NCBI GenBank assembly: GCA_016208305.1
Contig: JACQYI010000009.1
Coordinates: 124,001-188,000, forward strand
DNA length: 64,000 bases
Direction: 5' to 3'
DNA from: Oscillatoriophycideae cyanobacterium NC_groundwater_1537_Pr4_S-0.65um_50_18
GTDB taxonomy: Bacteria; Cyanobacteriota; Cyanobacteriia; Elainellales; Elainellaceae
Made by a program: the position numbers and the translations under genes. Position 1 is the first letter of the stretch, and each line of letters begins with the position of its first letter. The notes under the pieces are model-generated. The model saw only the letters and a list, made by a program, of their open reading frames with translations. It had not been told where the DNA came from and made no database searches. Below are positions 15,009 to 32,373 of this stretch, one piece after another.

Positions 15009-16454
15009 CTAGCGAATAGACTGCATCCCGTCAAAGGCACGAATCAGCTCATCAGCCACATAGCTAATCGGAGCACGCGATCGCACCTTAATATTCGCGA
15101 TCAATGTCATCCCTGGCGTTAGGGTCAGCGGTTTGGCTCGGCTAGATAAGAATTGCTGGTCAATTTGCACCTCCACTGGAAAAACGGCCTGTCCTGCTGT
15201 TTGCTCGTTTCTCACAGCCTCATTTCCAATTTGAGAAACGGTGCCTTGGACTGCGCCAAATTCAGTAAAGGGATAGGCATCAATCCGTACATCGACGGGC
15301 ATCCCTTGACGAATGTTGGCGATATCGGTGTTGGCTACCTGAACCCGTGCCGTCAGGGTTTCGCTAGGCACTACCTGAAGTAGCACCTGTCCCGGTTGTG
15401 CCACCATGCCCGGCAGCTTCGGCCCCAGGTTAAACACAACGCCATCAGCAGGCGCATGTAAGTCTTGATCCTTCAAATTGAGCTGAATCTGATTGATCTG
15501 AGAAGCAATCTGAATCAACTGCTGCTGATTGTTTTTAATCGTGGCATCAAATTCTGCATCTAGCGCTGCGAGCTGACTCTGCAAATTCTGATAGTCTGCG
15601 CTAATCTGCTGCCTCGTCTGCACCTGCGTCTGAATCTGATTCAACTGAAGCTGGCTTCTTTGTAGGTCGCCTTGATTGGCCTGACTTTGCAGGGCATTGA
15701 TGCCGACGACGCGCTGCAAAAACTCTGTGCGAGAGATAGCGCCTTGCTCTAGCAGCGGCTGCAACTGACTTACTAATTTCTGCTCTACATCCCGCTGAAA
15801 TTCGGTTTGGGCGAGCTGTGATTCGGTGGCGGCGACTTGAGCCTGCAAGCTTGATCCCTGAAGTTCGTTGATGGCAAGGCGATCTTGCATCTGCTGCTGA
15901 AACAAGTTATACCGCTGAAACTGCTCTGGGCTAAGACCGCTGGGATCGCCAGAAATTTGCGCGACTAAGAGCGATCGCGTTTCTACCCGATTAAGCAATT
16001 CTGGAGAAATTTTGGCACCGCTCTGGATCAGCGCACTGGCGGAAGCCCCTTGGCTGGCCTGCTGCAATACCGCCACTTCTGTCACCATTAGATCTTGTTG
16101 CACCAAAAGAGACTGAAGCTGATTTCGTAATTCGGCTTTGTCGAGTTGCAGCAAAAGATCGCCTTGCTTAACGCGCTGGCCTTCGCGCACCGCAACTGTC
16201 GTCACAACCCCACCTACTTTGGACTGCACAGCCTGAGACTGCGACAAAGGCTCTAGCTTGCCCTGAGCGGCAATCACTACATCTACCCGTGCCAAGACAG
16301 ACCAGGTTCCGGCAGCGGTCAGCCCCAGCAAGATCACAAAAACCAGGCGCTTTGTCCAGGCGGCAGGCTGCGGCAGGCTTAATCCGCCCGTCCCCATGTT
16401 GTGTTCCACCTTATCGATCGCCGTTTGCCAACTAAAGAGCCGATTAAGACGCAT
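15009..16454 (-). CDS. HlyD family secretion adaptor (type I secretion membrane fusion protein)
   Basis: A 481-residue periplasmic adaptor. It has a short cytoplasmic N-terminus, one membrane anchor (about residues 35-55, RLVFVILLGLTAAGTWSVL), a lipoyl/barrel half (GKLEPLSQSQAVQSKVGGVV...VREGQRVKQGDLLLQLD), a long Gln-rich alpha-helical hairpin (about 110-330) and the returning lipoyl half (DLHAPADGVVFNLG...GMVAQPGQVLLQVVP). It would bridge the ABC exporter and an outer-membrane channel. ATG 16454 has GGAG eight bases upstream. It is the last gene of the minus-strand secretion operon, 52 bases after the ABC exporter. No TolC-like gene is in the window, so a genome-wide shared channel is expected. 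Confidence 0.95.
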   Translation of the reverse strand: MRLNRLFSWQTAIDKVEHNMGTGGLSLPQPAAWTKRLVFVILLGLTAAGTWSVLARVDVVIAAQGKLEPLSQSQAVQSKVGGVVTTVAVREGQRVKQGDLLLQLDKAELRNQLQSLLVQQDLMVTEVAVLQQASQGASASALIQSGAKISPELLNRVETRSLLVAQISGDPSGLSPEQFQRYNLFQQQMQDRLAINELQGSSLQAQVAATESQLAQTEFQRDVEQKLVSQLQPLLEQGAISRTEFLQRVVGINALQSQANQGDLQRSQLQLNQIQTQVQTRQQISADYQNLQSQLAALDAEFDATIKNNQQQLIQIASQINQIQLNLKDQDLHAPADGVVFNLGPKLPGMVAQPGQVLLQVVPSETLTARVQVANTDIANIRQGMPVDVRIDAYPFTEFGAVQGTVSQIGNEAVRNEQTAGQAVFPVEVQIDQQFLSSRAKPLTLTPGMTLIANIKVRSRAPISYVADELIRAFDGMQSIR

Positions 16455-16506
16455 AATATCTCCAAATCAATGAGGTCAGGTGAAGCCAATTCAATCAGGT
16501 CATCTC

Positions 16507-19500
16507 TTACAGACGAGATTGCTGTGCGTACAGACAGTAGTAAAGCTGACGACGCATCATTAAATCTTGATGGGTACCTTGTTCGACAACGATGCCGGAC
16601 TCCATAAAGACAATCCAGTCTGCCTTAGTGAGCGTATTGAGTCGATGTGTAATGAAGAAAACTGTGCGATCGCTAAATCGATGCATCAGATTATCAAATA
16701 CGCGACGCTCAGTTTCAAAGTCTAAAGCGCTGGTAGCCTCATCAAAGACCAGTAAGCGCGGATCAGTTGCAACAGTTCGGGCGATCGCAATTCGCTGGCG
16801 CTGTCCTCCTGAGAGCGTACCGCCGCGCTCTCCGACTTTGGTGCTGTAGCCTTGAGGCAACTGCATGATGAACTCATGGGCATCGGCAATTCGAGCGGCC
16901 TCAATCACAGCGTCATCTGATAAGTCACTAAACAGAGCAATGTTGTCGCGAATGGTGCCCTCAAACAGCACTGCATCTTGAGGCACATAGCCCAGTTGAT
17001 GCCGTAGAGAATCTAGCTTGACTTTGTTAACGTCAAAGCCATCGATATAGATGCTACCTGAGTTAGGGACATACAAGCGAGGCAGCAGCTTCATCAGCGT
17101 ACTTTTCCCAGAGCCACTTTGACCTACCACACCCACAAAGGAACCAGCCGGAATATCGAGACTGACGTTAGAAAGCTGCTGCTGTCCGGGGGCAAACCCA
17201 AACGTAATATCGCAATACTGAACGCGACCCTGAATAAGAGGCATCTGCACATTTGCAGCTTCAGGTAATTCCTCAGTGGTTGAGTCGGCAATATCTGCCA
17301 ATAGCTCCATTGAGAGAGAGGTTTCCTGAAAGCGCTGCCACAGACCCGCCAACCGAATCATGGGGCCTGTCACATATCCTGCCAAGATCCGAAAGGCAAT
17401 CAGCCCACCCAGAGATAATTTCCCTTCAAGCACCAGGCTGGCTCCGACCCACAGCACCAAAAAGCTGCTGGTGGTATTGAGAAATTGGTTGAACGATCCA
17501 AAAATAGTGCTAACGGTTGCCGTCGTGAAACCGCTCCCCAGATAATTCACGTAGCGATCGCGCCAAGTCGCCTCTACCAAAGACTCCATGTTCTGCGCTT
17601 TCACCGTAAACATGCCGTTGAGAACTTCGATAAGGTAGGACTGCACCTTAGCCCCATGATCGGATTTGACACGAATCAGCTTTTTCTGCACAGACGCAAC
17701 CGCTAATGTCGAAAGGACGATCACAGGAATCGTCAAGAGAACACATAGCGTCAGCGTCGGGCTATACAAAAACATAACGCCGATATACATAACAGAGAAA
17801 ATAACGTCCAAAACGCCAGTTAGCGCAGTGCCCGTTAAAAACTGACGAATATTTTCCAGCTCATCCAGCCGCGATGAAAGTTCTCCTACGGGACGCTTAT
17901 CAAAAAAGCTCAGAGGCAGGCGCAACAAATGCCGCACAATCTCAATGCTTAACCGTAGATCAAGACGAGTTGTGGTGCTGGCAAAGAGATACATCCGCAG
18001 AATCGTTAATACGCCTTCTAGAAAAGCAAAGGAAATCAGCAGTATCCCAAACATCGGCACGACTCCGATGTTGGCATTGATGATGACCTTATCAATCACC
18101 TGCTGCACCAGAAGTGGATTGGCTAAACCCAACACCTGAATAAAGACAGAGGCAATTAAGACCTGAGTTAGAATACCGCCCTGAGCGGCCAGCATCGGGA
18201 TAAACCAGCTAAATCCAAACCGCTTTGTGGGGGTGCGGGGCAGGCGTTCTAGGGTGACGGCCTCACAGGTAGGCGTGGGATTCGTCAGTGAGGCAGGAGC
18301 ATCGGGCGTCAGCCGCGAAGCCAGTTGGTCAGCCGACAGCCGCAACAATCCAGTGCGGGGTGAGCCGACGACTGCTCCGGTTGCCGTGACCTCATAAATC
18401 ACCGTGAGAATATCATGACAGCGGACAATTGCTGGCAGACTTAACCGATTCAGCCCTCCAATAGTGGGGGTAAAGTGCATGACTTGCGCATTCAACCCGA
18501 CAGCCTGACCAATCCGCAGACAGAGATCGAGCGGCTCAAACTCCTCAAGCGATCGCTGTTTGAGTAATTTGCGCAGGCTGTCTGGGCGATAGGGCACCTG
18601 CAAAAGCTCACAAACCATACCAAAACAGGCGATCGCATCTTCTGCCACTTCGGGTACAGGCGATCGACGAATGGGATAGTTGTGTGTGCGCGCAGACTCC
18701 CGACTGGGCGCACCGGAGACATAACCAGGGGGGTGTAAGGTGTGACTTGAGGTGTGACTTGAAGTGTAATTGGGGACATCAGTAGAAGCCTGACCCGGAA
18801 CAGGCTTAAACGCTCGGCTGAGGGCACTGGTTGAAGGATTGGGCGGCAATGTGCCGCTGTTCTTGCCGTTAGAGCCGTTAGAGCCGTTAGAGCCGTTATG
18901 GGCACCCGTGTTTGGGTCATGCAGAATAATAGGCGGGGAATTTAACCCTGGATCGCCTCCCGGCAGCATGCGAGATTCATCGACCCCCGTCACATCTGTT
19001 GGAATCGCACCGCTGAGCAGTGCCGACGCCAAGAAACTCCGTTCAATGCCTAGCAGCCGCACCGGGAAAAGCGAAGGGCGAATTTGCTGGAGTAATTGAG
19101 GGCTGGTAACGGGCGTTCCGATCGCCAGATTGACCGGAGCGCCACCGCTGACCAGCCAAACCTGATCCGCAGAAGGCTGCACAAAAAAATCATCTGGTCG
19201 ATCGGGGTACCAATGTTGCACAACGGCAAGCTGCTCTTGCTCGATATATTGCACCACATCTTTAAGATTGACGCCTGAGAACCGAGAAGGCATGGATGCC
19301 AAAAAGCAAGAGAGGGTATCAAAAAGTTCGCTGAGGCTGACCTGTTCTGCTAAGGCAGGCATCAAGTGCTGAAGCGCCAAAGACTCAAATACATCGGCAG
19401 GAATAGCCACCGTTAAGATTTCTGCCTCTTCACCCAGAGCCGCGCGGGCAGATCCGCCTGCCACCCGTCGCATTAGCGCATCCCAGCCGATCACAGTTCC

Positions 19501-19749
19501 TTTACCGGCAATGGCCAAGGTTGGACTTTGATAGGACATTGCGCCTAAAATTCTGACCTTCCCCTGCACGATACAGTGAACGGCTGAAGGTAGCTCGGTA
19601 GGCTGGTAAATAAACTGTCCAGGCCGAAAAGAACAGAGTCTGAGCTTTAAGGCTATCTGCTTTCGCATAGCAGTCGGAATCGAGTCAAACGGCCATGCGT
19701 CAAAAAAACTGCGGAGAAATAGCGAAATCTGGGCATCAAGCTCAGCCAT
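16507..19749 (-). CDS. type I secretion ABC exporter with cNMP-binding-like N-terminus and degenerate C39 domain
   Basis: A 1080-residue fusion. Residues about 15-140 form a Crp-like cyclic-nucleotide-binding fold (FRPGQFIYQPTELPSAVHCIVQGKVRIL). A low-complexity linker (about 270-350) contains SNG repeats encoded by a 9-bp tandem repeat. A C39-like domain follows (about 360-490, starting DAIACFGMVCELL). It keeps a Cys, but the catalytic His position looks replaced, and the usual DP reads SP in VVGSPRTG, so it is probably non-proteolytic. Then come six membrane helices (about 520-800) and an ATPase with Walker A GQSGSGKST, LSGGQRQR and LLVFDEATSALD. HetC of heterocyst formers has a similar architecture. 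It probably exports the divergent RTX protein using its C-terminal signal. Confidence 0.95.
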   Translation of the reverse strand: MAELDAQISLFLRSFFDAWPFDSIPTAMRKQIALKLRLCSFRPGQFIYQPTELPSAVHCIVQGKVRILGAMSYQSPTLAIAGKGTVIGWDALMRRVAGGSARAALGEEAEILTVAIPADVFESLALQHLMPALAEQVSLSELFDTLSCFLASMPSRFSGVNLKDVVQYIEQEQLAVVQHWYPDRPDDFFVQPSADQVWLVSGGAPVNLAIGTPVTSPQLLQQIRPSLFPVRLLGIERSFLASALLSGAIPTDVTGVDESRMLPGGDPGLNSPPIILHDPNTGAHNGSNGSNGSNGKNSGTLPPNPSTSALSRAFKPVPGQASTDVPNYTSSHTSSHTLHPPGYVSGAPSRESARTHNYPIRRSPVPEVAEDAIACFGMVCELLQVPYRPDSLRKLLKQRSLEEFEPLDLCLRIGQAVGLNAQVMHFTPTIGGLNRLSLPAIVRCHDILTVIYEVTATGAVVGSPRTGLLRLSADQLASRLTPDAPASLTNPTPTCEAVTLERLPRTPTKRFGFSWFIPMLAAQGGILTQVLIASVFIQVLGLANPLLVQQVIDKVIINANIGVVPMFGILLISFAFLEGVLTILRMYLFASTTTRLDLRLSIEIVRHLLRLPLSFFDKRPVGELSSRLDELENIRQFLTGTALTGVLDVIFSVMYIGVMFLYSPTLTLCVLLTIPVIVLSTLAVASVQKKLIRVKSDHGAKVQSYLIEVLNGMFTVKAQNMESLVEATWRDRYVNYLGSGFTTATVSTIFGSFNQFLNTTSSFLVLWVGASLVLEGKLSLGGLIAFRILAGYVTGPMIRLAGLWQRFQETSLSMELLADIADSTTEELPEAANVQMPLIQGRVQYCDITFGFAPGQQQLSNVSLDIPAGSFVGVVGQSGSGKSTLMKLLPRLYVPNSGSIYIDGFDVNKVKLDSLRHQLGYVPQDAVLFEGTIRDNIALFSDLSDDAVIEAARIADAHEFIMQLPQGYSTKVGERGGTLSGGQRQRIAIARTVATDPRLLVFDEATSALDFETERRVFDNLMHRFSDRTVFFITHRLNTLTKADWIVFMESGIVVEQGTHQDLMMRRQLYYCLYAQQSRL

Positions 19750-19884
19750 ATTTTTTCACTCCCTTCAGTAATAGGGTGTAGCTGATTCTGGGTAAAGACT
19801 ATTTTTTTGGGGCTGTTTGCCCGAAAAATCTAAAGCAATTTTTGAAAAAGGTTATGCACGCTCAAGACAGGTAGATGGGCAACG

Positions 19885-20664
19885 CTAAGTTAAAGAGGCG
19901 ATCGGCGGGGCTTGGCTAGCATCAGCCTGAATGGCGATCGCTCCTGGAGTCGAGGTCACGCTTCTCACCTGAGACTGGAGCCAGCGGTCATACAGACGAT
20001 TAATTAGGCTGGCACGGGTTGCCTCAGTCAAGCGAGCGCTGGTCAGATGCTCTAGCCGCACAATCCAAAAGCAATCGCCGATGGGGATAGGGCCATAAAT
20101 GGCTTGAGGTTGACCGCTGCGAAACAGCATAGCCACCTCAACGGGCAAGCTAGACAGGGCGACAGGGCCAACCCAGCCGCCGGATACCCGCTCGCTCCCT
20201 AAAGAATGCTGCTGAGCCAGTTGCTCGAAGCTAGCGCCATCGTCCCGCAGCTGAAAATAGACCTCTTGCGCCAGCAGCAGATCCGTCATTTGAATCAGTG
20301 AATATTCCACCTGATCAAAGTCCAGCTTGTTTCGTAAAAACTCCGATTCCACTTGATTGCCGAAACAGATCTCCTTAAATTTTTCGATGCGCAAATCCCG
20401 CAGCATAACGGCACTAAAGTATTCTGGAGTCACACTTTTCTGCTGACACCACTGCGCCAAGAAAGCGCGAAAATCCTCTGGTATTTCCGCGTCTGTTGCT
20501 CCCACCAAGGCATAAAACACTTCTTGCTCAGTCAAAGGAATTTCTTCAACCACTTTGTCAAGCACCACCTGCCCCACCAACGACTCCAGCAGCTTGTACT
20601 GCACCAGAGCCGAAACCACCTGATCGCTATCAAACGAGCGATCGCCAATTTTCAAAATACCCAT
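19885..20664 (-). CDS. parvulin-type peptidylprolyl isomerase
   Basis: About 259 residues resembling SurA/PrsA-type parvulins. A helical N-terminal part (VVSALVQYKLLESLVGQVVLDKVVEEI) is followed by a degenerate rotamase domain near residues 125-220 (LLAQEVYFQLRDDGASFEQLAQQHS, SGGWVGPVALSSLP, FWIVRLEHL). There is no signal peptide, so it should be cytoplasmic, fitting a role in keeping a secretion substrate unfolded. I prefer ATG 20664 (MGILKIGDRSF) to the TTG at 20676. It is first in the secretion operon, 135 bases before the exporter gene. Such isomerases recur beside exporters of this type in cyanobacteria; the chaperone role here is inferred. Confidence 0.85.
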   Translation of the reverse strand: MGILKIGDRSFDSDQVVSALVQYKLLESLVGQVVLDKVVEEIPLTEQEVFYALVGATDAEIPEDFRAFLAQWCQQKSVTPEYFSAVMLRDLRIEKFKEICFGNQVESEFLRNKLDFDQVEYSLIQMTDLLLAQEVYFQLRDDGASFEQLAQQHSLGSERVSGGWVGPVALSSLPVEVAMLFRSGQPQAIYGPIPIGDCFWIVRLEHLTSARLTEATRASLINRLYDRWLQSQVRSVTSTPGAIAIQADASQAPPIASLT

Positions 20665-21372
20665 ACCTTGTTCCAAGTTCCAATATTGCGAACTAGCAAG
20701 CTTTTGTGAGCAATAGAATGGTCAGCAATAGATTTGTCAGTCTAGAATAGGACTGAGGATCAAGAGCGAAGGCAAGATTTGCAGAAGGCTTAGCAGTAGC
20801 GCACCAGAATCACTTAAACCGCATCCTCAGCAGTAGCGCACCAAACCCGCCTAAACTTCCCTAAACTTCACTGTATCTATTTATAACCTATTATTTTCAT
20901 GTTATCCACTAATTAGAACTCAATTGCAACTTAGAATTCTAATTAATCGAAAAAACTGCCTTTCCCCATTGACGATAGCTTCAGCTTGGCTATAATGGGC
21001 GAAGTGCCGCGCTTAAAGTTAATGCGCAAGTGCAAAACCAAGACTCCAATCTAGTCAATTAGCTCAACTCAGCCATTCTGAGTCTACTGGGTCAATCTCA
21101 GAGGCCGTTCTTTCACCTGCTTTGATGTGTGGACATTGGCATCCTTACACTGAAACAGGCTGCAAGTCACTCCTGCGATCGATACCAGTCTACAGAATTA
21201 CGCCTGGGCTTGTCATCTTTTCTCTGTTCAACCTTTCATCAGCCCTGATATTGGAAACCCTGATATTGGAAACCCTAAGCTGATTTGTCCTGAAGTCTCA
21301 CGAGCTTCAGGCTCAGGTTGATGACTCTAGATCCACAGATCCACATTCGCAATTAATCACCAGGAGACAACT
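20665..21372. other. divergent promoter region of secretion operon and RTX gene
   Basis: 708 bases without a gene. It contains two direct repeats AGCAGTAGCGCACCA (20792-20806, 20829-20843) and a tandem duplication of CCCTGATATTGGAAA (21243-21257, 21258-21272). Promoters for both directions must lie here. Confidence 0.6.
21243..21272 (+). repeat. 15-bp tandem repeat upstream of RTX gene
   Basis: Two exact adjacent copies of CCCTGATATTGGAAA, about 100 bases before the RTX start codon. It could be a duplicated regulator site or a slippage product. Confidence 0.6.
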
Positions 21373-22917
21373 ATGAGCCTTACCACACAAAAAGGGCTAG
21401 ATGCGCTTTTGTCTTTGCTTGAAAACAGCCCAGTCAGACGTGCTAGCAATCGTCGTAAATTCAACGGTCAAAATAGTAACGATGTATTCTCTGGCGATGC
21501 CAAAAACAATACAGGCAAAGGCGGTCGAGGCGATGACGCGCTGCTAGGCAACAATGGTAACGATCGCTTGCAAGGAGACAATGGCAGAGATGTGCTCTTT
21601 GGTGGAATCGGGAACGATCGCCTCTTGGGCGGCAACAGCAACGACATGCTGTTTGGCGAAGCCGGAGACGACTCCCTCGATGGCGGCAATAATAATGACA
21701 TGCTCGATGGTGGCATAGGGCTAGATGTCTTGATAGCCGGAGGGGGCAATGACCTGTTGGTTGGCGGTGCAGGCGTTGATACCATGACAGGCGGCAGCGG
21801 TCGCGATCAGTTTGGCTATGATGGCAAACTGTTCGCCAACGGAATCGTTGCTCCGGCAGGAAACACAGGCATCAATGTGTTAAACCAGCCAGACATTATT
21901 AGAGACTTCAACGTCGCAGAAGATTCGTTTACCTTAGATGCTCAGGCTCTCGGCATCGATAACCTCGTGTTTCAAAAAGGTCAATCTTCTCAAATTGCCG
22001 ATGGCAATGTGATTGTGCTGTCCGATAGCTTTGCGGCTGCCGGAGCAGCTGCCCGCGCCATTGCCAATAACAGCAACATTACCGCCGATGCAGGTGTCTT
22101 CCTCTACTTTAATACCACGCTAGGGTTGAACCGCTTGGTCTACTCCAAAGACTTGGCTGGCGGTGGCGATATTAGCGTGTTGGCTAATCTAGACAACCAG
22201 CGGGGAGCCACAGGACAAGCAGATTTGGCCAAGTTTACGGTTGGCAACTTTAACCTTTCTAATGGTGACTCCAACCGCACAGCAGATGCTAACAGCGATG
22301 TGCTATTTGGCGATGCTGGAACCAATGTGCTTAATGGCGGCAGCGGTGATGATTCTGTTGATGGCCGAGTGGGCAACGATACCCTCACAGGCGGCAACGG
22401 CAACGATTTCATCGTGGGCGGTGCCGGGGTTGATAGCCTCACGGGTGGCAGCGGTCGCGACCAGTTTGTTTACCGAGGCAACGTCTTTGCGAACGGCACA
22501 GCGGCTCCAGCAGGTACCACAGGCATCAACGTTTTGAATCAGCCCGATAGAATCACTGACTTTACGATCGCAGATGATCAAATCACCTTAGATGGTTCAG
22601 ATTTGAACATTGGGACAGTCACCTTCCAAAAAGGACAGTCTTCTCAGCTGGCCAACGGCAATGTGATTGTGTTGACAGATGGTTTTGCTGCGGCGGGTGC
22701 TGCCGCTCGCGCCATTGCCAACAATACCAACATCACTGCCGATGCAGGGGTGTTTGCCTACTTCAACACCACGTTGGGGCTGACTCGCGTAGTCTACTCC
22801 GAGAATTTAGGAGATGGCGGCGACATCAGCGTTCTGGCGAATTTGGAAAATCAGCAGGGCGCAGCAGGACTAACCAATATTGCTAGCTTCACGGCTACCA
22901 ACTTTAACATCGTTTAG
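21373..22917 (+). CDS. RTX calcium-binding secreted protein with internal duplication
   Basis: 514 residues, no Sec signal. About ten glycine/aspartate RTX nonapeptides (GGxGxDxLx type) span residues 48-145 and fold into a calcium beta-roll. A roughly 165-residue module starting at GGAGVDTMTGGSGRDQF follows. A second short RTX block (about 308-365) and a second copy of that module then end the protein. The two modules are nearly parallel (QPDIIRDFN/QPDRITDFT, FAAAGAAARAIANN twice, ISVLANL twice). The DNA repeat is offset by about 654 bases. ATG 21373 has AGGAG six bases upstream. It is the probable substrate of the divergent type I system, exported unfolded and folding outside on calcium. The module resembles C-terminal secretion domains common in cyanobacterial RTX proteins. 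Confidence 0.95.
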   Translation: MSLTTQKGLDALLSLLENSPVRRASNRRKFNGQNSNDVFSGDAKNNTGKGGRGDDALLGNNGNDRLQGDNGRDVLFGGIGNDRLLGGNSNDMLFGEAGDDSLDGGNNNDMLDGGIGLDVLIAGGGNDLLVGGAGVDTMTGGSGRDQFGYDGKLFANGIVAPAGNTGINVLNQPDIIRDFNVAEDSFTLDAQALGIDNLVFQKGQSSQIADGNVIVLSDSFAAAGAAARAIANNSNITADAGVFLYFNTTLGLNRLVYSKDLAGGGDISVLANLDNQRGATGQADLAKFTVGNFNLSNGDSNRTADANSDVLFGDAGTNVLNGGSGDDSVDGRVGNDTLTGGNGNDFIVGGAGVDSLTGGSGRDQFVYRGNVFANGTAAPAGTTGINVLNQPDRITDFTIADDQITLDGSDLNIGTVTFQKGQSSQLANGNVIVLTDGFAAAGAAARAIANNTNITADAGVFAYFNTTLGLTRVVYSENLGDGGDISVLANLENQQGAAGLTNIASFTATNFNIV

Positions 22918-22930
22918 ACTGCTTGTTTTT

Positions 22931-22971
22931 AACCCTGTTGGGTTGGTTTCCGGGCTTAATCGTCCGGAAAT
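22931..22971 (+). terminator. possible terminator after RTX gene
   Basis: Two small hairpins, AACCC/GGGTT (22931-22944) and TTTCCGG/CCGGAAA (22947-22970), directly follow the stop codon. There is no good T tract, so termination is uncertain. Confidence 0.4.
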
Positions 22972-23064
22972 CAGCCCAGGCTTACCTCCTGTAATTAGTC
23001 CCCCCTCATAGAGGGCTAATTGAGTGCTAAAGCTATCAATCCGTCGTTTCGGGAGCTTTTAATT

Positions 23065-24342
23065 ATGAACCGTTGGCTATTCAGTAGTGGGGCGATCGTT
23101 TCTTCCGCAGTAGCACTTTATGGCTGGATGAACCCATCTACCTTTAATCTGACTCTCTTGAGCGCCCAGCTGGATCAGGATTCAAAGCCCCTACCTGGAG
23201 AGATAGAAGGGCTTTACGATCGCATGCTGAAAAAGGCGCGAACGGTCGCAACAGATGATCAGCTTGCAGAAGCCATTACTGCGGTTGCTGGAATTCCGAA
23301 AAACAGTCGCTCCTATGGAGAAGCTCAGCAACTCCAGGAAGACTGGACACAGGAATTGCTCCAGCGTGCCCGTGACCAATACAAGCAAGCGAATTGCAGT
23401 ATGGCAATCTGGATGCTGAAGGCGATTCCGCCTAACAGCGAACGCTACGAGCGCGCCACAGAATTGCAACAGCGTTGGACAAAAGAATGGTCTACTTTTC
23501 GACAAGCCTCTGCTGCCAAAAAGCAGGGAGATTGGAAAGGTGTGATGACTTCTCTGGCATCGCTAAAAGACTCAGTGCTGTATCAAAGCTTTCCGGCTCA
23601 GGAGATGCTACAGCAGGCGACAGCGAACCTGTATAGCGCAGATAAGACTCTGGTACAGATTAACTCTGTTCCTGTTGATCAGGCGGTCATGGTTCCAGCT
23701 ATACCCTCCACAGCAGAGCTAGATACCGCATCTTTACCCATGTCTGCTACGTCACCCAATCTCTTGATCGGGCGCTCTCAGGCTCTAGCATGGGCAGAAC
23801 CTCCCGCTTTAATGGCTGGCTCTCCGACAGGTATGCGATCGTATTCCAATGGAAGCATGCCTCGGAGTGGTGCGTCTGCGCCTGAGTTTGTGCCGTTGGA
23901 ATGGGCACCGCCTGCCCTTGCCCCAAGCTTGCCCGAAGCTTCTCAACCGACCAAGCCTTTAGGCAATGGAGATGGAAACACTAACGGTAGCCCAGATAAC
24001 ATGGCTGATCGTTCGCTAGATCCCATATCTGAGCCTTCTGCTATCTCTCAACCGACATCTCCCTCCTCTAATCCGATTGCGCCGACCGACTGGATGGGAT
24101 TTCTCCCTCTCGATCTCATGCCCTCCGCAGAAACACCCGCAGAGAGAACTAATCCTGTAGATGGCGATCGCTTGATGGAGATGTATTCTGTGCCGATCGC
24201 CCCTGCCCAAATGTCTTGGGGCAAGAGCGTGACCGAAAAACCAACCCCGATTCGCAATGGTCAAACCTCTACAATTTGCCCCTCAGCGGTTTGCAACTCT
24301 TCCCAACCTCAGGTGCTTCCCATTAATACGCCTAACCTTTAG
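23065..24342 (+). CDS. exported or anchored protein of unknown function
   Basis: About 425 residues from ATG 23065 (MNRWLFSSGAIVSSAVALYG), chosen because GGGAG lies 8 bases upstream; the frame is open to 23020. The N-terminal hydrophobic stretch is a signal peptide or anchor. Residues about 45-190 hold helical repeats in the style 'A..A...IP.NS..Y.EA..LQ..W', seen in other cyanobacterial envelope proteins. The remaining 230 residues are Pro/Ser/Ala-rich and apparently unstructured. Two Cys near the C-terminus (TICPSAVCN) may form a disulfide. It follows the RTX gene by 148 bases in the same direction, so a surface-related role is possible. I do not recognise the family. Confidence 0.75.
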   Translation: MNRWLFSSGAIVSSAVALYGWMNPSTFNLTLLSAQLDQDSKPLPGEIEGLYDRMLKKARTVATDDQLAEAITAVAGIPKNSRSYGEAQQLQEDWTQELLQRARDQYKQANCSMAIWMLKAIPPNSERYERATELQQRWTKEWSTFRQASAAKKQGDWKGVMTSLASLKDSVLYQSFPAQEMLQQATANLYSADKTLVQINSVPVDQAVMVPAIPSTAELDTASLPMSATSPNLLIGRSQALAWAEPPALMAGSPTGMRSYSNGSMPRSGASAPEFVPLEWAPPALAPSLPEASQPTKPLGNGDGNTNGSPDNMADRSLDPISEPSAISQPTSPSSNPIAPTDWMGFLPLDLMPSAETPAERTNPVDGDRLMEMYSVPIAPAQMSWGKSVTEKPTPIRNGQTSTICPSAVCNSSQPQVLPINTPNL

Positions 24343-26927: not shown

Positions 26928-28508
26928 CTAAGCCTCTACAACCAGGCGATCGACTGGACGAGCAATGCAGCATAGAATATAGCCCGCTGCGCGATCGGCA
27001 TCACTGAGTGCGATCGGCTGGCCTTCATACTGAACTTGACCTTCTCGGGCTAAGACCTTGCAAGCTCCGCAGGAACCCACCCGACAAGCGTTCCGAATGC
27101 TGATGCCCTCTTGTTCTGCGAGTTCCAAAACAGAGGTATTACCATCGGCTGGAACGCTGCGATCGGAATTAGCAAATTTCACGAGAGGGGCAACTTTAAT
27201 TGCAGCATTACCCCCAGCGGGATTGGTTAACAGCTCAGGTGAAGACTTACTTTGACCATTGCGGCTGGTCGCAGCCATTGCCGGAGCTGGTGCAGTCTTA
27301 GCCACTGCCGCTCTATTAGCGGTGGGTGCTTGATTCACGCCGCTGATGGTGGCAGTGGCTGGCTCTTTGATGGCAGCCGTCTTACCAGCGGGCTTGCCGC
27401 CAAAGCTCTCTTGCTTGTATTGCTGCATGGGAAAGTTAACGGATTCTAACAGAGACTTAAAGGTTGTCACAAATCCATCAGGCCCACAGGCATAGACAGC
27501 GCGATCGAGCAGATCAGGCACCACCACATGCAGCATTGATTTAGAAATCCGTCCCGTTAGCCCCATCCAAGAATGTCTGGCAGAAGGCTGAGTAGTGGTG
27601 ATGGCTAGCCGGAAATTCGGCATTTGTGCCGACATCAGCGCTAGCTCTTCGCGGAAAATAATGTCTTCAGGTCGGCGGGCGCTGTGGAGAAACACAATGT
27701 CGCTATCTGCCAAGGTATCCTGTACCCAACGCGACATCGACATCATGGGCGTAATACCGCTACCTGCCGAAATCAGCAGCATTTTAGGAGGTAGGTCGGG
27801 CAGACAGGTAAAGTGTCCGAGGGGAGTTCCAATCAGCTTTACCCGATCGCCTACTTTAAAGGAGCTATGGAGCCAGCTAGAAACCAGTCCTGGACGAGCT
27901 GGATCGGAAGCTTCTCGTTTTACGGTGAGATTAATGGAATAGGGGCGAGTAGGCGATGAAGAAATAGAGTAGGGGCGCAAAATGGGCTTGCCGTCAATCT
28001 CGACCTCTATGTTGACAAACTGCCCCGGCTTGTAATTAAACAGCATGGGCGGTTCTGCAACAAAGCAAAACGTCTTCACATCCGGCGTTTCGTCAATAAT
28101 ACGGCAACAGCGCACCTGCAAATCTCCGGTTGACCACGGTTGTTCTATAGCAGGAATTGATGAGCCTGTATTAGATACGGCGAGAGAGGGTGGCTCCATC
28201 TCCTCAACGTGAATATAGGTTTCTCCAATTTGGAGTAAGTCTCCTACCCGTAGCGATCGCTTATCGTTGGGTTCTAAAATCTCTCCATTGAGTGATGACC
28301 CCGAAGTACTGCCATCATCTATAAAGTAGTAGGTGTCATCCTGGTAAAGAATTTTTCCATGAACCCGACTGACTTCTTGAGCTGATAGTACAAGGTCGCA
28401 GGTCGCATATCTACCGATTACCCACTCTAACTGCTCAGGATGAGTCTGGGTAAGGATATGAGTTCCAAACTCTTGTTGCTCAAAGTTTACTGACTTAAGT
28501 TTCAGCAT
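26928..28508 (-). CDS. FHA domain - flavin/NAD(P)H oxidoreductase - [2Fe-2S] ferredoxin fusion
   Basis: 526 residues from ATG 28508 (GGGAG upstream; the frame is open to 28553). An FHA phosphothreonine-binding domain occupies about 26-97, with G32-R33, S47-R-V-H50 and N74-G in the usual places. A ferredoxin-NADP reductase-type unit follows: RPYS at 178-181 binds flavin, SAGSGITPM at 247-255 and YACGPDGF at 339-346 bind NAD(P)H. An Ala/Thr/Lys-rich linker (about 370-445) leads to a plant-type [2Fe-2S] domain with C475, C480, C483 and C513/514. The reductase-ferredoxin order matches Hcr- and CbaB-like one-electron transfer chains; the FHA part is unusual. The kinase two genes upstream is the likely source of its phospho-partner. 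Soluble. Confidence 0.93.
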   Translation of the reverse strand: MLKLKSVNFEQQEFGTHILTQTHPEQLEWVIGRYATCDLVLSAQEVSRVHGKILYQDDTYYFIDDGSTSGSSLNGEILEPNDKRSLRVGDLLQIGETYIHVEEMEPPSLAVSNTGSSIPAIEQPWSTGDLQVRCCRIIDETPDVKTFCFVAEPPMLFNYKPGQFVNIEVEIDGKPILRPYSISSSPTRPYSINLTVKREASDPARPGLVSSWLHSSFKVGDRVKLIGTPLGHFTCLPDLPPKMLLISAGSGITPMMSMSRWVQDTLADSDIVFLHSARRPEDIIFREELALMSAQMPNFRLAITTTQPSARHSWMGLTGRISKSMLHVVVPDLLDRAVYACGPDGFVTTFKSLLESVNFPMQQYKQESFGGKPAGKTAAIKEPATATISGVNQAPTANRAAVAKTAPAPAMAATSRNGQSKSSPELLTNPAGGNAAIKVAPLVKFANSDRSVPADGNTSVLELAEQEGISIRNACRVGSCGACKVLAREGQVQYEGQPIALSDADRAAGYILCCIARPVDRLVVEA

Positions 28509-28555
28509 ATGGAGTCTCCCAGATTGCTTGTATGGAGTAGTGTGGTGTCTCAACT

Positions 28556-28612
28556 ATGCTGTTTATTTTCTGAAAAGCTTACGGTGCACACCTTTCAGAA
28601 AATAAACAGCAT
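28556..28612 (-). other. 20-bp inverted repeat inside the kinase-NapH-FHA cluster
   Basis: A perfect 20-bp stem (ATGCTGTTTATTTTCTGAAA at 28556-28575, complement at 28593-28612) with a 17-base loop lies between the NapH-like stop and the FHA gene start. There is no T tract on the minus strand, so I read it as an intercistronic RNA hairpin that could set different mRNA stability or act as an attenuator. Confidence 0.7.
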
Positions 28613-28680
28613 GCTTAGAACATGACCGCCTCACTTTTGAGGGAGGACTTTGGAAAAGTTGCGCTCAGAGGTAAGTTGAG

Positions 28681-30408
28681 TTAGCGCCGCCGTTTGTGAG
28701 GAGAAATAGAACGGGCGATCGTTCGATTGGTTGGTTTTTTGGCAACGGTTCTTGCCAGCGTTTCTGTATCTTCACTGACTGCCGATCGCGGTGTTGCAGC
28801 CTCCAAGAGTTCTGGGTTACTGGTTGCGATCGTCTGAATAGCGGTGAAGTGATCGGAATCCTGAATCTGGAGGTCTTGACGCAGCTTCTTGCAAAACTCA
28901 AAGCTTTGGGATGGATCGGTCACGCGCTGCTCTAGCAAGTCCTGCACCACGCCTGTATAAGTTTGTAAGCGAACCTGCTGCGAGACGCCCAGTAAGACTT
29001 TTGCCAAGGTGTAAACCTCGTTAGAGGTGAGTTCATCGAGAGAGCGTCCGTCCAGCAGCGTGGGATCGATCGGGAACTGCTGAAGCTGCTTCCGCAGACT
29101 GGTAGACATGCTCTCGCGGTTGTATTGGGCGTGGGTGCGGCTCAGGGTTCGATAAAGCCAAATTGCGCCTACCAAAACAATCAGTGCATTAAATCCTAGC
29201 AGCAGCAAGCTGGGCAAGCGGTTAAGCGAAGGACGCGCACCATACGAAAAGAACGTCCAGAATGATATAGCGGTGAATAGCGTGAAAACAACATGCTGAG
29301 CCTGTTCTGCTGAGGCGGGTTTCTTTCGCCATACGGTATATCTGCGATAGAGTTTCTCTAGAATCAATCCCCAGAACAATGTAATGGACAGCAGAACGAA
29401 GTACGTAATGAAGACTGCGATGAACTTAGGAATCGCGATAGATTGACCCTGAATGTAGAAGCCTGGATCAAAGACGCGGGAGAGCAAATCTCTCTCATGA
29501 GTCCATGCGCCCGTGAAATAATAGTCCCAGTTACCAGAGTAGAGGTAATAGTAGAAGTAAAAGGCGATGACCATGCCGAGATATCCATACTGCACCAAGC
29601 GCCGACCGGGTTTTCGTAGCTCTTGCCAGTAGGTTTTTTCCGCATCAATATCGATACAGGGTAGTTTACAGCCAACACAAGCACTGACCTCTTTCCCCGT
29701 CTTAGAATCGATTGTGCGGCACATCGATTGCGTCACACTTGGCTTTGGTGTTGTGTGAGCTTGGCTGCCCAGCAGCGATCGCGGCCCTGTGTAAATCATT
29801 TGCACCGGAGCCATAGGACAGAAGTAATTGCACCAGCTCTTTCCAGCATAAAGATAGCCGATGAGAATCGCAGAAACGATCGTGAATATCAAAAAGTAGC
29901 CCAGAGCTTTGTGATCGCCATTCACAAATAGAATCCGTAGTCCCAGCCCCAAAAAGAATAGCCCAAACTGCACATAGAGATGATTTTTCCCAAGCCAGGA
30001 ATTCTCACCGATCGTCACCAATTCATATCGCACTTCTTGAGTGGTTGGATTGACAATCTTGCGCTTCCGTTGAATCTTTAGGGCACGCGGAATTTGCGAC
30101 AAGAAGGAAAGGGGGCAAATGCGTCGCCAAAATTCATGTCCAAACACTAGCAAAATGAAGATACCCGCAGGCACAATCATCGCCCACCATATCAAGACAG
30201 TCATCGAGTAGGGTTCTTGGGGCAAGCAGGTTTCTCGAATCTTGACGCACTGCTCAAGATTGATGCGAAAGGGGCTAGCAAAATTGTCAGGTTGGGTAAA
30301 AGCTGGTGTGATCGGGTCATAAAATAAGGATGCAATCAGCACTAGCCAGCCTAACGTCAGGAGCCACCGAACTCGGTGCATTATCGGTTCCGAAACTTTG
30401 TTTAGCAT
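28681..30408 (-). CDS. NapH/CcoG-like [4Fe-4S] membrane protein
   Basis: A 575-residue inner-membrane protein with about 8 hydrophobic segments. It has the paired 'CP' signatures of NapH/NosR/RdxA-type quinol-linked electron carriers: RRICPL at 95-100 and WCNYFCPMAP at 192-201. A cytoplasmic cluster site follows (C230, C244, C247, C251; SACVGCKLPCIDID). That gives ligands for a single [4Fe-4S]. The N-terminal loop also carries C54 and C61. The last 150 residues are soluble, helical and of unknown role, ending in a basic RKRR-like tail. It is sandwiched between a Ser/Thr kinase gene and an FHA-flavin-[2Fe-2S] gene on the same strand. I infer electron transfer between that reductase and the membrane. 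TTG/ATG alternatives exist; ATG 30408 was kept. Confidence 0.88.
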   Translation of the reverse strand: MLNKVSEPIMHRVRWLLTLGWLVLIASLFYDPITPAFTQPDNFASPFRINLEQCVKIRETCLPQEPYSMTVLIWWAMIVPAGIFILLVFGHEFWRRICPLSFLSQIPRALKIQRKRKIVNPTTQEVRYELVTIGENSWLGKNHLYVQFGLFFLGLGLRILFVNGDHKALGYFLIFTIVSAILIGYLYAGKSWCNYFCPMAPVQMIYTGPRSLLGSQAHTTPKPSVTQSMCRTIDSKTGKEVSACVGCKLPCIDIDAEKTYWQELRKPGRRLVQYGYLGMVIAFYFYYYLYSGNWDYYFTGAWTHERDLLSRVFDPGFYIQGQSIAIPKFIAVFITYFVLLSITLFWGLILEKLYRRYTVWRKKPASAEQAQHVVFTLFTAISFWTFFSYGARPSLNRLPSLLLLGFNALIVLVGAIWLYRTLSRTHAQYNRESMSTSLRKQLQQFPIDPTLLDGRSLDELTSNEVYTLAKVLLGVSQQVRLQTYTGVVQDLLEQRVTDPSQSFEFCKKLRQDLQIQDSDHFTAIQTIATSNPELLEAATPRSAVSEDTETLARTVAKKPTNRTIARSISPHKRRR

Positions 30409-30428
30409 CTGGATGATTTCTCTCTACT

Positions 30429-30464
30429 TATGGGCAAGTATTTCTTTATGGGCAAGCATTTCTG
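30429..30464 (-). repeat. 18-bp tandem repeat between kinase and NapH-like genes
   Basis: Two adjacent near-identical copies of TATGGGCAAG(T/C)ATTTCTN lie in the 96-base gap. Either slippage or a duplicated protein/RNA-binding site. Confidence 0.5.
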
Positions 30465-30504
30465 AATGCTTATGTAACTTGCAAGTTCTGCGCGAGCTAA
30501 AAAT

Positions 30505-32373
30505 TTAGGGAATAGCGCGGGAACTAATTTGCCAGATTCGCAGTCGTTTATCTTGGTTAAATCCCACGAGATAGCGATGATTAGGGCCAAGGGCAACTGC
30601 AACATCCTGACCGCATTTGCTGGGCAACGTCGCCATCAGACTTCCTTTCGGACTCCAGACGCGAATATTGCCGTCATTGTGGACAGTTACAGCGTGCTGC
30701 TTTCCCAACAGCGTCGTCACAAGCTGGGCAGAATTTTCGGGAAATGCCCGCATCAAGCCTTCTTGCTGCAAATCCCAAACCAGGGTTCGATCTTCGCCAA
30801 AGCTAAACAGCGTGTGTTCATCCGCCATACGAAGGCTGACAATGGGCGCTTTATGTCCGGCAAAGGTGCGCCGGAGCTGTCCGGTGGGTAGATCCCAGAG
30901 CTGCAATTCATCTTGGGTACTGGCGCTAACCAGGCGATCGGAATTGCCCCCATAGGTCAGGGCAGTCACGGGGTGCGTGGTAGACAGCGTGTGTAAGGGT
31001 TCGCCAGTTTGCAAATTCCAAACTCGCAGGGTTCCATCTTCGCCACTGCTGGCGATCGATTGTCCATCGGGGCTAATGGCAATCGCAGCTACGGCTCCTG
31101 CATGCGCCTCAATGCTCCAGATGGGTTTACCGGAGGTCGTATCCCAAAGCCGCAGCGTCCGATCTTTACTGCCGCTGACCAATAGACGGCCATCTTGACT
31201 CACATCTAAAGCCGTTATGGTACCCGTATGCCCTGACAGGGTTTGGAGGGCGGCTCCGGTGGGCAGTGCCCAGAGATGCAACCCATAATCAGACTCTGCG
31301 GTGACTAAAAAGCGATTTTCGGGCGCAATCAACATACGATCGACACCTGAGGGCAGCGTCATGTCATGCACCAAGGTGATGTCTTTGTCTGAGCGAGAAA
31401 CAAAGTGCTCAGCTTGAGACAGCATTGCACCCGCTTGCTCAATTCGGCTAGAGCCGTACCATCCCCCCATGAGCAGCAGCGCTGCAACCGTCGGTTTCCA
31501 GAGCTGCCGGACTGACATCCTGCGCTTGGGAGGCCGCTGCTTGACAGGGGTCGATTTCAGAGCGGCTAAAACTTCAGCAGCATAGGCAAAGCGCAATCGC
31601 GGATGGCGTTGTACCATGCGACTAAGAATGGTGGCTAAGTGAGGGTCAATCGATCGCCCTTGCAAATGCACCTGCCAATCTAGCTCGCCTGAAATCGGAT
31701 CTTGCTGAAAATCCTGGGGGTGGATGCCCGTCATCATCTGAATGACGGATACGCCCAACGCATAGATATCACTGCCAAACTCTGCCATGCCGAGGAGCTG
31801 TTCATCCGGCATATAGCCTGGAGTTCCAATGGCCAGACCCGCACTAGCCGCATGGGTCTCAGAGGCCGAATGGGTTTCTGAGACAGAGCAAGCAGCGCCA
31901 AAATCGATTAAAACGATTGTATTTTTGCTGTAAATCAGATGACTTGGCTTGATATCTCGGTGAATCACCTGCTGAGCATGAATATAGTCCAATATGGGTA
32001 AGACTTGTTTCAATAAGCCGATCGCTGCTTCTGAGCTGAGATACTGTCCTTGAACGATCGCATCTCCCAGATTTTCGCCCTCAATGTATTCCTGAATTTG
32101 GTAAATCCATTCTTGCTCGCGGCAATAGGCATACAAAGTGGGAATTTGAGCATGGTTTTGCCCAAAGCGATCGAGGATTTGAGCCTCCGTTTCAAAGAGC
32201 TGTTGCGCCGTTTCTTCTGAAATCGCGCTGCTGGGCGATAGCTGGAAACGCTTGACGACGCACAGGGGATGACAGGGTAAATATTTATCCCGCGCCAAAT
32301 AGGTTTCGCTAAATCCACCAGATCCAAGTTTCTCTAGAATCAGATATCGGTCAGCTAAGAGTTGCCCAATCAT
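30505..32373 (-). CDS. serine/threonine protein kinase with C-terminal WD40 propeller
   Basis: About 622 residues from ATG 32373 (a TTG three codons earlier is the alternative). The kinase domain (about 10-275) shows the Gly loop G17SGGFSETY, K41, HRDIKPSH at 138-145, DFG at 157-159 and GTPGYMPDEQ. The HRD loop has His where the magnesium-binding Asn is normally found (position 145), which could reduce or alter activity. The activation loop carries a SETH(S)A repeat rich in Ser/Thr. After a hydrophobic segment (about 290-305), WD40 repeats fill residues about 335-620 and probably form a seven-bladed propeller outside the membrane or as a docking platform. It is first in a cluster with a NapH-like protein and an FHA reductase. 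Confidence 0.94.
   Translation of the reverse strand: MIGQLLADRYLILEKLGSGGFSETYLARDKYLPCHPLCVVKRFQLSPSSAISEETAQQLFETEAQILDRFGQNHAQIPTLYAYCREQEWIYQIQEYIEGENLGDAIVQGQYLSSEAAIGLLKQVLPILDYIHAQQVIHRDIKPSHLIYSKNTIVLIDFGAACSVSETHSASETHAASAGLAIGTPGYMPDEQLLGMAEFGSDIYALGVSVIQMMTGIHPQDFQQDPISGELDWQVHLQGRSIDPHLATILSRMVQRHPRLRFAYAAEVLAALKSTPVKQRPPKRRMSVRQLWKPTVAALLLMGGWYGSSRIEQAGAMLSQAEHFVSRSDKDITLVHDMTLPSGVDRMLIAPENRFLVTAESDYGLHLWALPTGAALQTLSGHTGTITALDVSQDGRLLVSGSKDRTLRLWDTTSGKPIWSIEAHAGAVAAIAISPDGQSIASSGEDGTLRVWNLQTGEPLHTLSTTHPVTALTYGGNSDRLVSASTQDELQLWDLPTGQLRRTFAGHKAPIVSLRMADEHTLFSFGEDRTLVWDLQQEGLMRAFPENSAQLVTTLLGKQHAVTVHNDGNIRVWSPKGSLMATLPSKCGQDVAVALGPNHRYLVGFNQDKRLRIWQISSRAIP

Follow-up and report, generated by a model that had tools for sequence, protein, structure and literature searches.

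What kind of system is encoded by three consecutive minus-strand genes at positions 26928–32373 of a 64,000-nucleotide stretch of cyanobacterial DNA, hereafter the window, in which a membrane Ser/Thr kinase, a membrane iron-sulphur protein and a soluble reductase bearing an FHA domain follow one another? The window spans positions 124001–188000 of its contig in the 6.9-Mb genome of Oscillatoriophycideae cyanobacterium NC_groundwater_1537_Pr4_S-0.65um_50_18. We read the whole as a phosphorylation-switched electron-transfer module, to which we assign a probability of roughly 0.55; that kinase, FHA-reductase and membrane protein make up one functional system of some kind is highly probable. An earlier note on this DNA had described three genes in this order, encoding a Ser/Thr kinase with a WD40 propeller, a ‘NapH-like’ membrane protein and a reductase-ferredoxin fusion with an FHA domain. 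Open reading frames and Pfam domains show that the genes are real and bear out the order, the kinase and the fusion, and the gene order and parts given here are near certain; ‘NapH-like’ is narrowed below.

The soluble reductase (26928–28508, 526 residues, on the minus strand like the other two genes) most likely begins at the ATG at 28508, the start that most relatives use, a TTG at 28553 being improbable. On the same strand it encodes an FHA domain (28221–28427; Pfam 9e-15), FNR-type FAD- and NAD(P)H-binding domains (27399–28124; FAD_binding_6 6e-10, NAD_binding_1 8e-17) and a plant-type [2Fe-2S] ferredoxin domain (26931–27191; Fer2 1.4e-13). Among 64 homologues the ferredoxin cluster cysteines C475, C480, C483 and C514 are invariant, as is G32 of the FHA domain, and the FHA contacts to phospho-Thr (R33, S47, R48, H50 and N74) are at least 90% conserved. 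The window reductase family thereby carries the signature of an FHA reader (Gly-Arg, Ser-x-x-His and Asn contacts). The structure model (predicted local distance difference test, pLDDT, 87) contains a disordered, Thr-rich linker at residues 377–434.

The membrane iron-sulphur protein (28681–30408, minus strand) has 575 residues, eight predicted trans-membrane helices and a helical C-domain; its closest named relative, from Drouetiella hepatica (locus L128), is 89% identical, which makes the host a Drouetiella-like cyanobacterium. The AlphaFold2 model (pLDDT 89, predicted TM-score 0.87) comprises eight long hydrophobic helices, the helical C-domain and a tail that is disordered from residue 541. 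In an alignment of 88 relatives C98, C193, C197, C230, C244, C247, C251 and His91 are invariant and C54 and C61 nearly so; the only invariant histidines are H91, at the end of the second trans-membrane helix, and H520, in the cytosolic domain. From a positive-inside reading of the loops we infer that the N-terminus, the seven cysteines, His91, the C-domain and the tail face the cytosol, with C54 and C61 outside. A search of the PDB with the model returned no fold match at E≤0.001, and for this conserved family no related fold has been solved.

Membership of the NapH family did not hold. The sole Pfam match is Fer4_5 at E=3e-4 and 21.0 bits, below the cut-off of 22 (some relatives pass it, L054 with 26.3 bits); no NapH model matches, NCBIfam gives only CcoG at E=0.0095, and the nap genes napA, napB and napG are absent from the window and from the annotated neighbourhoods of relatives. 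The label is therefore best kept to a resemblance in a Fer4_5-like segment. Like NapH and CcoG, which carry Fer4_5, this protein crosses the membrane several times and combines a CX3CP segment with additional cluster cysteines; it differs from them in the weak model scores and the want of a PDB fold match.

The kinase gene (30505–32373, minus strand; Pfam Pkinase 3.3e-33, WD40 2.6e-38) encodes a kinase domain at about 31585–32340, one trans-membrane segment near residue 300 and a WD40 propeller at about 30527–31350 that is predicted to lie outside the cytosol. It retains the VAIK lysine (as CVVK), the catalytic Asp and the DFG motif.

Conservation across relatives ties these genes together. 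In the window's own clade, hereafter clade A (Leptolyngbyales; 35 distinct loci, 57–89% identical in the membrane protein, from relatives named mostly Leptolyngbya and similar), the reductase gene lies within 500 bp after the membrane-protein gene at 34 of 35 loci, and a same-strand kinase gene no more than 500 bp upstream at 28 of the 33 informative ones (29 within 2.5 kb). Counts of loci, kinases and motifs here and below are raw counts of loci or sequences and ignore kinship. Adjacency in related genomes, which the earlier note had offered as a check, is thus conserved, and because the window genome has only about 31 Pkinase matches in all, a kinase at 28 of 33 loci exceeds chance. The genes share a strand and the gaps between them are short (2–4 bp in L103 and L153), so we favour co-transcription of the three, judging from the gene layout; promoter and terminator scans at the locus gave matches at chance level and were uninformative.

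Could the kinase be an accidental neighbour of a two-gene unit made of membrane protein and reductase? The loci with no kinase alongside (L096, L098, L100) and the substituted catalytic residues of several clade-A kinases would suit such a view, which we nevertheless regard as very improbable given the 28 of 33 loci and the pattern among long homologues of the membrane protein: a kinase gene lies within 7.5 kb of 14 of the 23 that have an FHA-reductase and of 0 of the 43 that do not. Non-orthologous kinases, moreover, have been recruited in separate clades. The window genome itself holds a second, paralogous module, with a membrane protein at G000:C41:660294-661880, an adjoining FHA-reductase, a different kinase, a WD40 protein and an RTX gene on the other strand, an arrangement that recurs in other genera. 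In Nostocales (L158, L042) the membrane protein reaches about 1100 residues and ends in FHA and cyclic nucleotide monophosphate (cNMP)-binding domains; the FHA-reductase comes next and a CHASE2-Ser/Thr kinase follows within a few genes. In Xenococcaceae (L198) the next gene encodes a kinase with a periplasmic binding domain (Pkinase+Peripla_BP_6). Orthology of these kinases was considered and rejected: the Nostocales CHASE2 kinases are 40–42% identical to the window kinase, no closer than its own paralogues (41%), and those of the second system are about 27% identical to it. The kinases of different clades not being orthologues, the association with the module arose repeatedly.

The C-terminus of the membrane protein varies more widely still. 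Long homologues with a C-terminal cNMP-binding domain lie directly 3′ of nrtABCD-type nitrate transporter genes at L054, L120, L064, L059, L047, L187 and L200, and other variants (L041:847-3057, L074:79-1749 and L073:8478-10346) end in an EF-hand pair (by Pfam in L041, EF-hand-like in L074) or a [2Fe-2S] ferredoxin. Since these additions differ, the same core may, according to lineage, take its input from calcium, a cyclic nucleotide, FHA or a ferredoxin.

If the reductase reads phospho-Thr, where is the mark? The disordered tail of the membrane protein (residues 541–571, pLDDT<50) is the strongest candidate, with Thr motifs T550-LAR, T554-VAK and T563-IAR (28711–28761, minus strand; from alignment and model) as proposed phospho-docking marks. 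Clade-A tails bear TLA[RK]T[IV]A[KR], and T554 is at least 90% conserved among 18 members of clades A and A′; clade-A′ tails are otherwise dissimilar, yet contain one to several copies of [DE]xT[VIL]xRP, the form also taken by the motifs of the window genome's second module. Common to both clades is the core T[VIL]x[RK]. In 55 tails with an FHA partner this core occurs 83 times against 8.05 expected from 1000 shuffles of the tails (shuffle maximum 19), and 47 of the 55 have it at least once (7.6 expected, shuffle maximum 17). Of tails for which the available sequence shows no adjoining FHA partner, 4 of 15 contain it (1.7 expected), two of those four (L113, L203) coming from groups whose other members do have the partner. 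At L103 and L104 the Ser/His pair of the FHA SRxH and the tail motif are both lost.

The mark might instead sit elsewhere, on the reductase's own linker or on the kinase. OdhI and GarA, stand-alone FHA inhibitors, are switched by binding their own phospho-Thr, and autoinhibition of that style would suit the Thr-rich, disordered linker 377–434. However, the motif is enriched neither in reductase linkers (0 against 2.9 and 15 against 7.5 expected, within the shuffle range) nor in kinase juxtamembrane segments (3 against 2.4 expected) or activation segments, which makes this placement unlikely. Docking of the FHA-reductase on a phosphorylated tail, as the motifs and the models suggest, seems to us somewhat better than an even bet. 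The docking model of the earlier note thus gains support that the note did not have: a disordered tail placed in the cytosol by the topology assigned above, Thr motifs specific to that tail and conserved FHA contacts. Against it stands the kinase of the window genus, which lacks the catalytic-loop Asn.

That substitution (HRDIKPSH for HRDIKPSN) heads the evidence that weighs against a phosphorylation switch. The Asn is kept in most relatives, L094 among them with an intact HRDxKPSN; elsewhere in clade A it is the HRD Arg or the Lys that differs (HCD, HGD, HHD, HRDIT), with the catalytic Asp, VAIK Lys and DFG retained. As catalytic-loop residues are substituted, the window kinase is possibly weak or a pseudokinase; it may be mechanistically altered, or serve as a scaffold while another kinase of the genome acts, and for the drifting clade-A kinases as a group pseudokinases or an altered chemistry are both possible. 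For this very genome, the non-canonical loop, as read from sequence, is the main weakness of a model in which the neighbouring kinase makes the docking mark. Further points on this side are that the conserved YTLAK helix of the folded C-domain also fits T[VIL]x[RK], so that this domain, alone among the other segments compared, shows enrichment too, that L096 and L098 retain the tail motif where no kinase adjoins, that L100 has neither an adjacent kinase nor T554, and that all conserved cluster cysteines are cytosolic, with no obvious trans-membrane cofactor.

Drift in the catalytic loop (N to H, R to C/G/H, K to T) was recorded for the window kinase and for L088, L102/L150, L097, L101, L131–L134, L139, L141, L147, L149 and L154. 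Elsewhere in the window genome an FHA match and a kinase match lie close together (G000:C60:149877-151022), and the kinase there is the genome's closest relative of the Nostocales module kinases (52%).

How would the phosphorylation-switched module work? A membrane Ser/Thr kinase whose sensor part, WD40 in this case, faces outward would respond to a signal, and it, or in the window genus possibly another kinase, would phosphorylate the Thr of T[VIL]x[RK] in the cytosolic tail. The FHA domain of the reductase would bind the phospho-Thr tail and so bring the path from NAD(P)H through FAD to [2Fe-2S] up to the [4Fe-4S] part of the membrane protein on its cytosolic side, and the membrane protein would hand electrons on into or across the membrane; the output might be superoxide or H2O2 outside the cell, made directly or via the quinone pool. 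Gene order, domains, conserved cofactor and FHA residues and a tail motif concentrated in homologues with an FHA partner are seen in the sequences; we infer tail phosphorylation, docking and the direction of electron flow. The chain had been called complete on paper; it is so only up to the membrane protein. Because the cluster cysteines are all cytosolic and no trans-membrane cofactor is apparent, a crossing of the membrane by electrons is left unexplained, and a quinone step or an undetected cofactor is favoured.

An output of extracellular superoxide or H2O2 is suggested by peroxidases and superoxide dismutase (SOD) adjoining modules in sister clades. In the membrane-protein tree a sister clade with strong support (Shimodaira–Hasegawa-like approximate likelihood ratio test, SH-aLRT, 100) holds modules beside secreted, H2O2-using enzymes of unrelated families. 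A VCPO-type haloperoxidase stands beside the module in Moorena (L194, L196, L199, L203, L208) and at L210, from an unrelated family, where it follows the reductase at 131 bp on the same strand; an algal-type vanadium bromoperoxidase adjoins it at L189 (347 bp before the membrane protein) and L198; at L183 the neighbour is a fusion of an animal-type haem peroxidase with RTX. L155, in another part of the tree, also has a vanadium haloperoxidase beside it. Across 386 surveyed cyanobacterial genomes VCPO_2nd occurs in 19 and the FHA-reductase in 15, and in the only two that have both (G339, G394) the genes are side by side. Nostocales, close to the window's clade in the membrane-protein tree (SH-aLRT 95), have a Cu/Zn SOD with a lipoprotein-like start immediately after the module and in the same orientation at 14 loci (for example L156:15544-16113, L158:16432-17007 and L211:7453-8022, plus 11 more), and in five checked genomes (G420–G424) it is the sole Cu/Zn SOD.

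These neighbours, two kinds of vanadium haloperoxidase, a haem peroxidase-RTX protein and Cu/Zn SOD, together with the side-by-side genes of the two genomes that have both, invite a more specific version of the phosphorylation-switched module: a regulated NAD(P)H-oxidase-like device that would provide secreted peroxidases with extracellular superoxide or H2O2, the superoxide being converted by SOD. It is a tentative version, clearly short of an even chance. Neither a Ferric_reduct haem domain (Pfam) nor conserved trans-membrane His pairs (alignment of 88 relatives), the marks of NOX and ferric reductases, were found, and no FRD domain; neither Cu/Zn SOD nor VCPO gave a match in the window genome, clade-A RTX proteins have no peroxidase domain, the peroxidase links fall mostly in one sister clade, and the SOD synteny is confined to one order. 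It is possible that such modules supply H2O2 to cyanobacterial halogenation. A trap of naming lies here: the ‘NapH1’ and ‘NapH3’ of PDB entries 3w35 and 8cxl belong to the vanadium haloperoxidases and have no kinship with the nitrate-reductase NapH.

The same electron path could end at the inner face of the membrane. A phospho-controlled NAD(P)H:plastoquinone reductase serving redox poise, with the nearby SOD and peroxidases protective or accidental, would agree with seven cytosolic cysteines and no trans-membrane cofactor, and with the related long homologues directly after nrtABCD genes. The NapH family, with which the membrane protein shares its Fer4_5-type segment, acts in quinol oxidation. 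This account leaves three unrelated peroxidase families and the SOD unexplained, no quinone site was identified, and we consider it possible but doubtful. Alternatively, outward electrons might repair oxidised envelope proteins through the outer pair C54/C61, in the manner of MsrPQ. The pair is near-invariant and assigned to the outside, and nearby oxidant-making haloperoxidases would cause the damage, but the annotated neighbours include no methionine-sulphoxide reductase or thioredoxin-like gene, and such a role seems improbable.

Set beside known systems, the proposed phosphorylation-switched module would work like NOX2/p47phox and DUOX, in which phosphorylation likewise drives assembly of a cytosolic electron supplier on a membrane electron carrier and in which, as in the sister clades here, peroxidases and SOD are partners. 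It is no NOX, lacking the haem domain, and differs in having no homologous membrane part, Fe-S clusters in place of haems, and FHA/phospho-Thr in place of SH3/PX. The reductase has the same FNR-ferredoxin catalytic layout as GbcB, Hcr and BenC, with GbcB the best model (339–391 bits), and differs in its N-terminal FHA domain, long linker and membrane Fe-S neighbour; assignment as a GbcB-type reductase was rejected, NF058606 scoring 339 bits against a cut-off of 500 and the adjoining gene encoding a membrane Fe-S protein, not a Rieske oxygenase. OdhI and GarA resemble the module in that a bacterial FHA protein linked to a Ser/Thr kinase controls a redox enzyme, except that here FHA domain and enzyme are a single protein and it is the membrane partner that bears the conserved Thr motif. 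Subunit F of Na+-NQR, and Rnf, also feed a membrane complex through NAD(P)H, FAD and [2Fe-2S]; beside the module, however, there are no NQR or Rnf subunits, the domain order is another, and the nqrF model scores 68 bits against a cut-off of 295.

As a combination the system is apparently undescribed, each part being of a known sort. Searches of the open (non-subscription) literature for cyanobacterial FHA combined with ferredoxin reductase, NapH or 4Fe-4S turned up no description; one 2026 review of cyanobacterial redox signalling mentions neither FHA nor Hanks kinases nor NADPH oxidase. At its boldest, the comparison would make this the counterpart in filamentous cyanobacteria, though not a homologue, of the phagocyte NADPH oxidase, with signal-activated Ser/Thr kinases that switch on a membrane Fe-S generator of reactive oxygen by phospho-Thr/FHA docking, the superoxide or H2O2 being used by secreted haloperoxidases, haem peroxidases and SOD; we think this rather unlikely. 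Cyanobacteria are known to release extracellular reactive oxygen (PMC6247811), and if superoxide or H2O2 outside the cell is the output, the module offers a testable genetic source for it and an H2O2 supply for cyanobacterial haloperoxidases. If true, direct phospho-Thr/FHA control of an electron-transfer chain would join bacterial Ser/Thr kinase signalling to the redox field; FHA domains, and part of the large set of orphan kinases in cyanobacteria, would gain a clear function.

Around the module, a stretch at 15009–24342 comprising a type I secretion set, an RTX gene and U440 forms a conserved neighbourhood in many Leptolyngbyales. The secretion set (15009–20676, minus strand; Pfam) consists of HlyD (15009–16454), a cNMP/C39-like/ABC protein (16507–19749) and a PPIC rotamase (19885–20676), and the same set lies near the module at L096, L136, L142, L144, L147 and L149. 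The RTX calcium-binding protein (21373–22917, plus strand; HemolysinCabind 1e-31), of uncertain role in the system, and U440 (23020–24342, plus strand; no Pfam match), a helical repeat-like protein with an N-terminal trans-membrane segment, recur beside the module in many clade-A loci; U440, co-conserved with the RTX gene, recurs at L093, L094, L095, L097, L100, L101, L132, L133, L134, L142 and L149. RTX adjacency alone is weak evidence, the window genome having at least 171 RTX repeat matches in dozens of genes. Two candidates were dropped: clade-A RTX genes as hidden peroxidases, for want of a peroxidase domain, and FmdA with an SsuA-like ABC transporter upstream of the kinase as parts of the system, these not being recurrent neighbours in relatives.

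Between the membrane-protein and reductase genes lies a perfect long hairpin (28556–28612, minus strand; −33.7 kcal/mol for an 86-nt stretch, z −6.0). It belongs to no Rfam family, has no second copy in the genome and is missing from the 89%-identical relative L088, and for these reasons it is taken as a local insertion. From its position and predicted fold, it could attenuate expression of the reductase.

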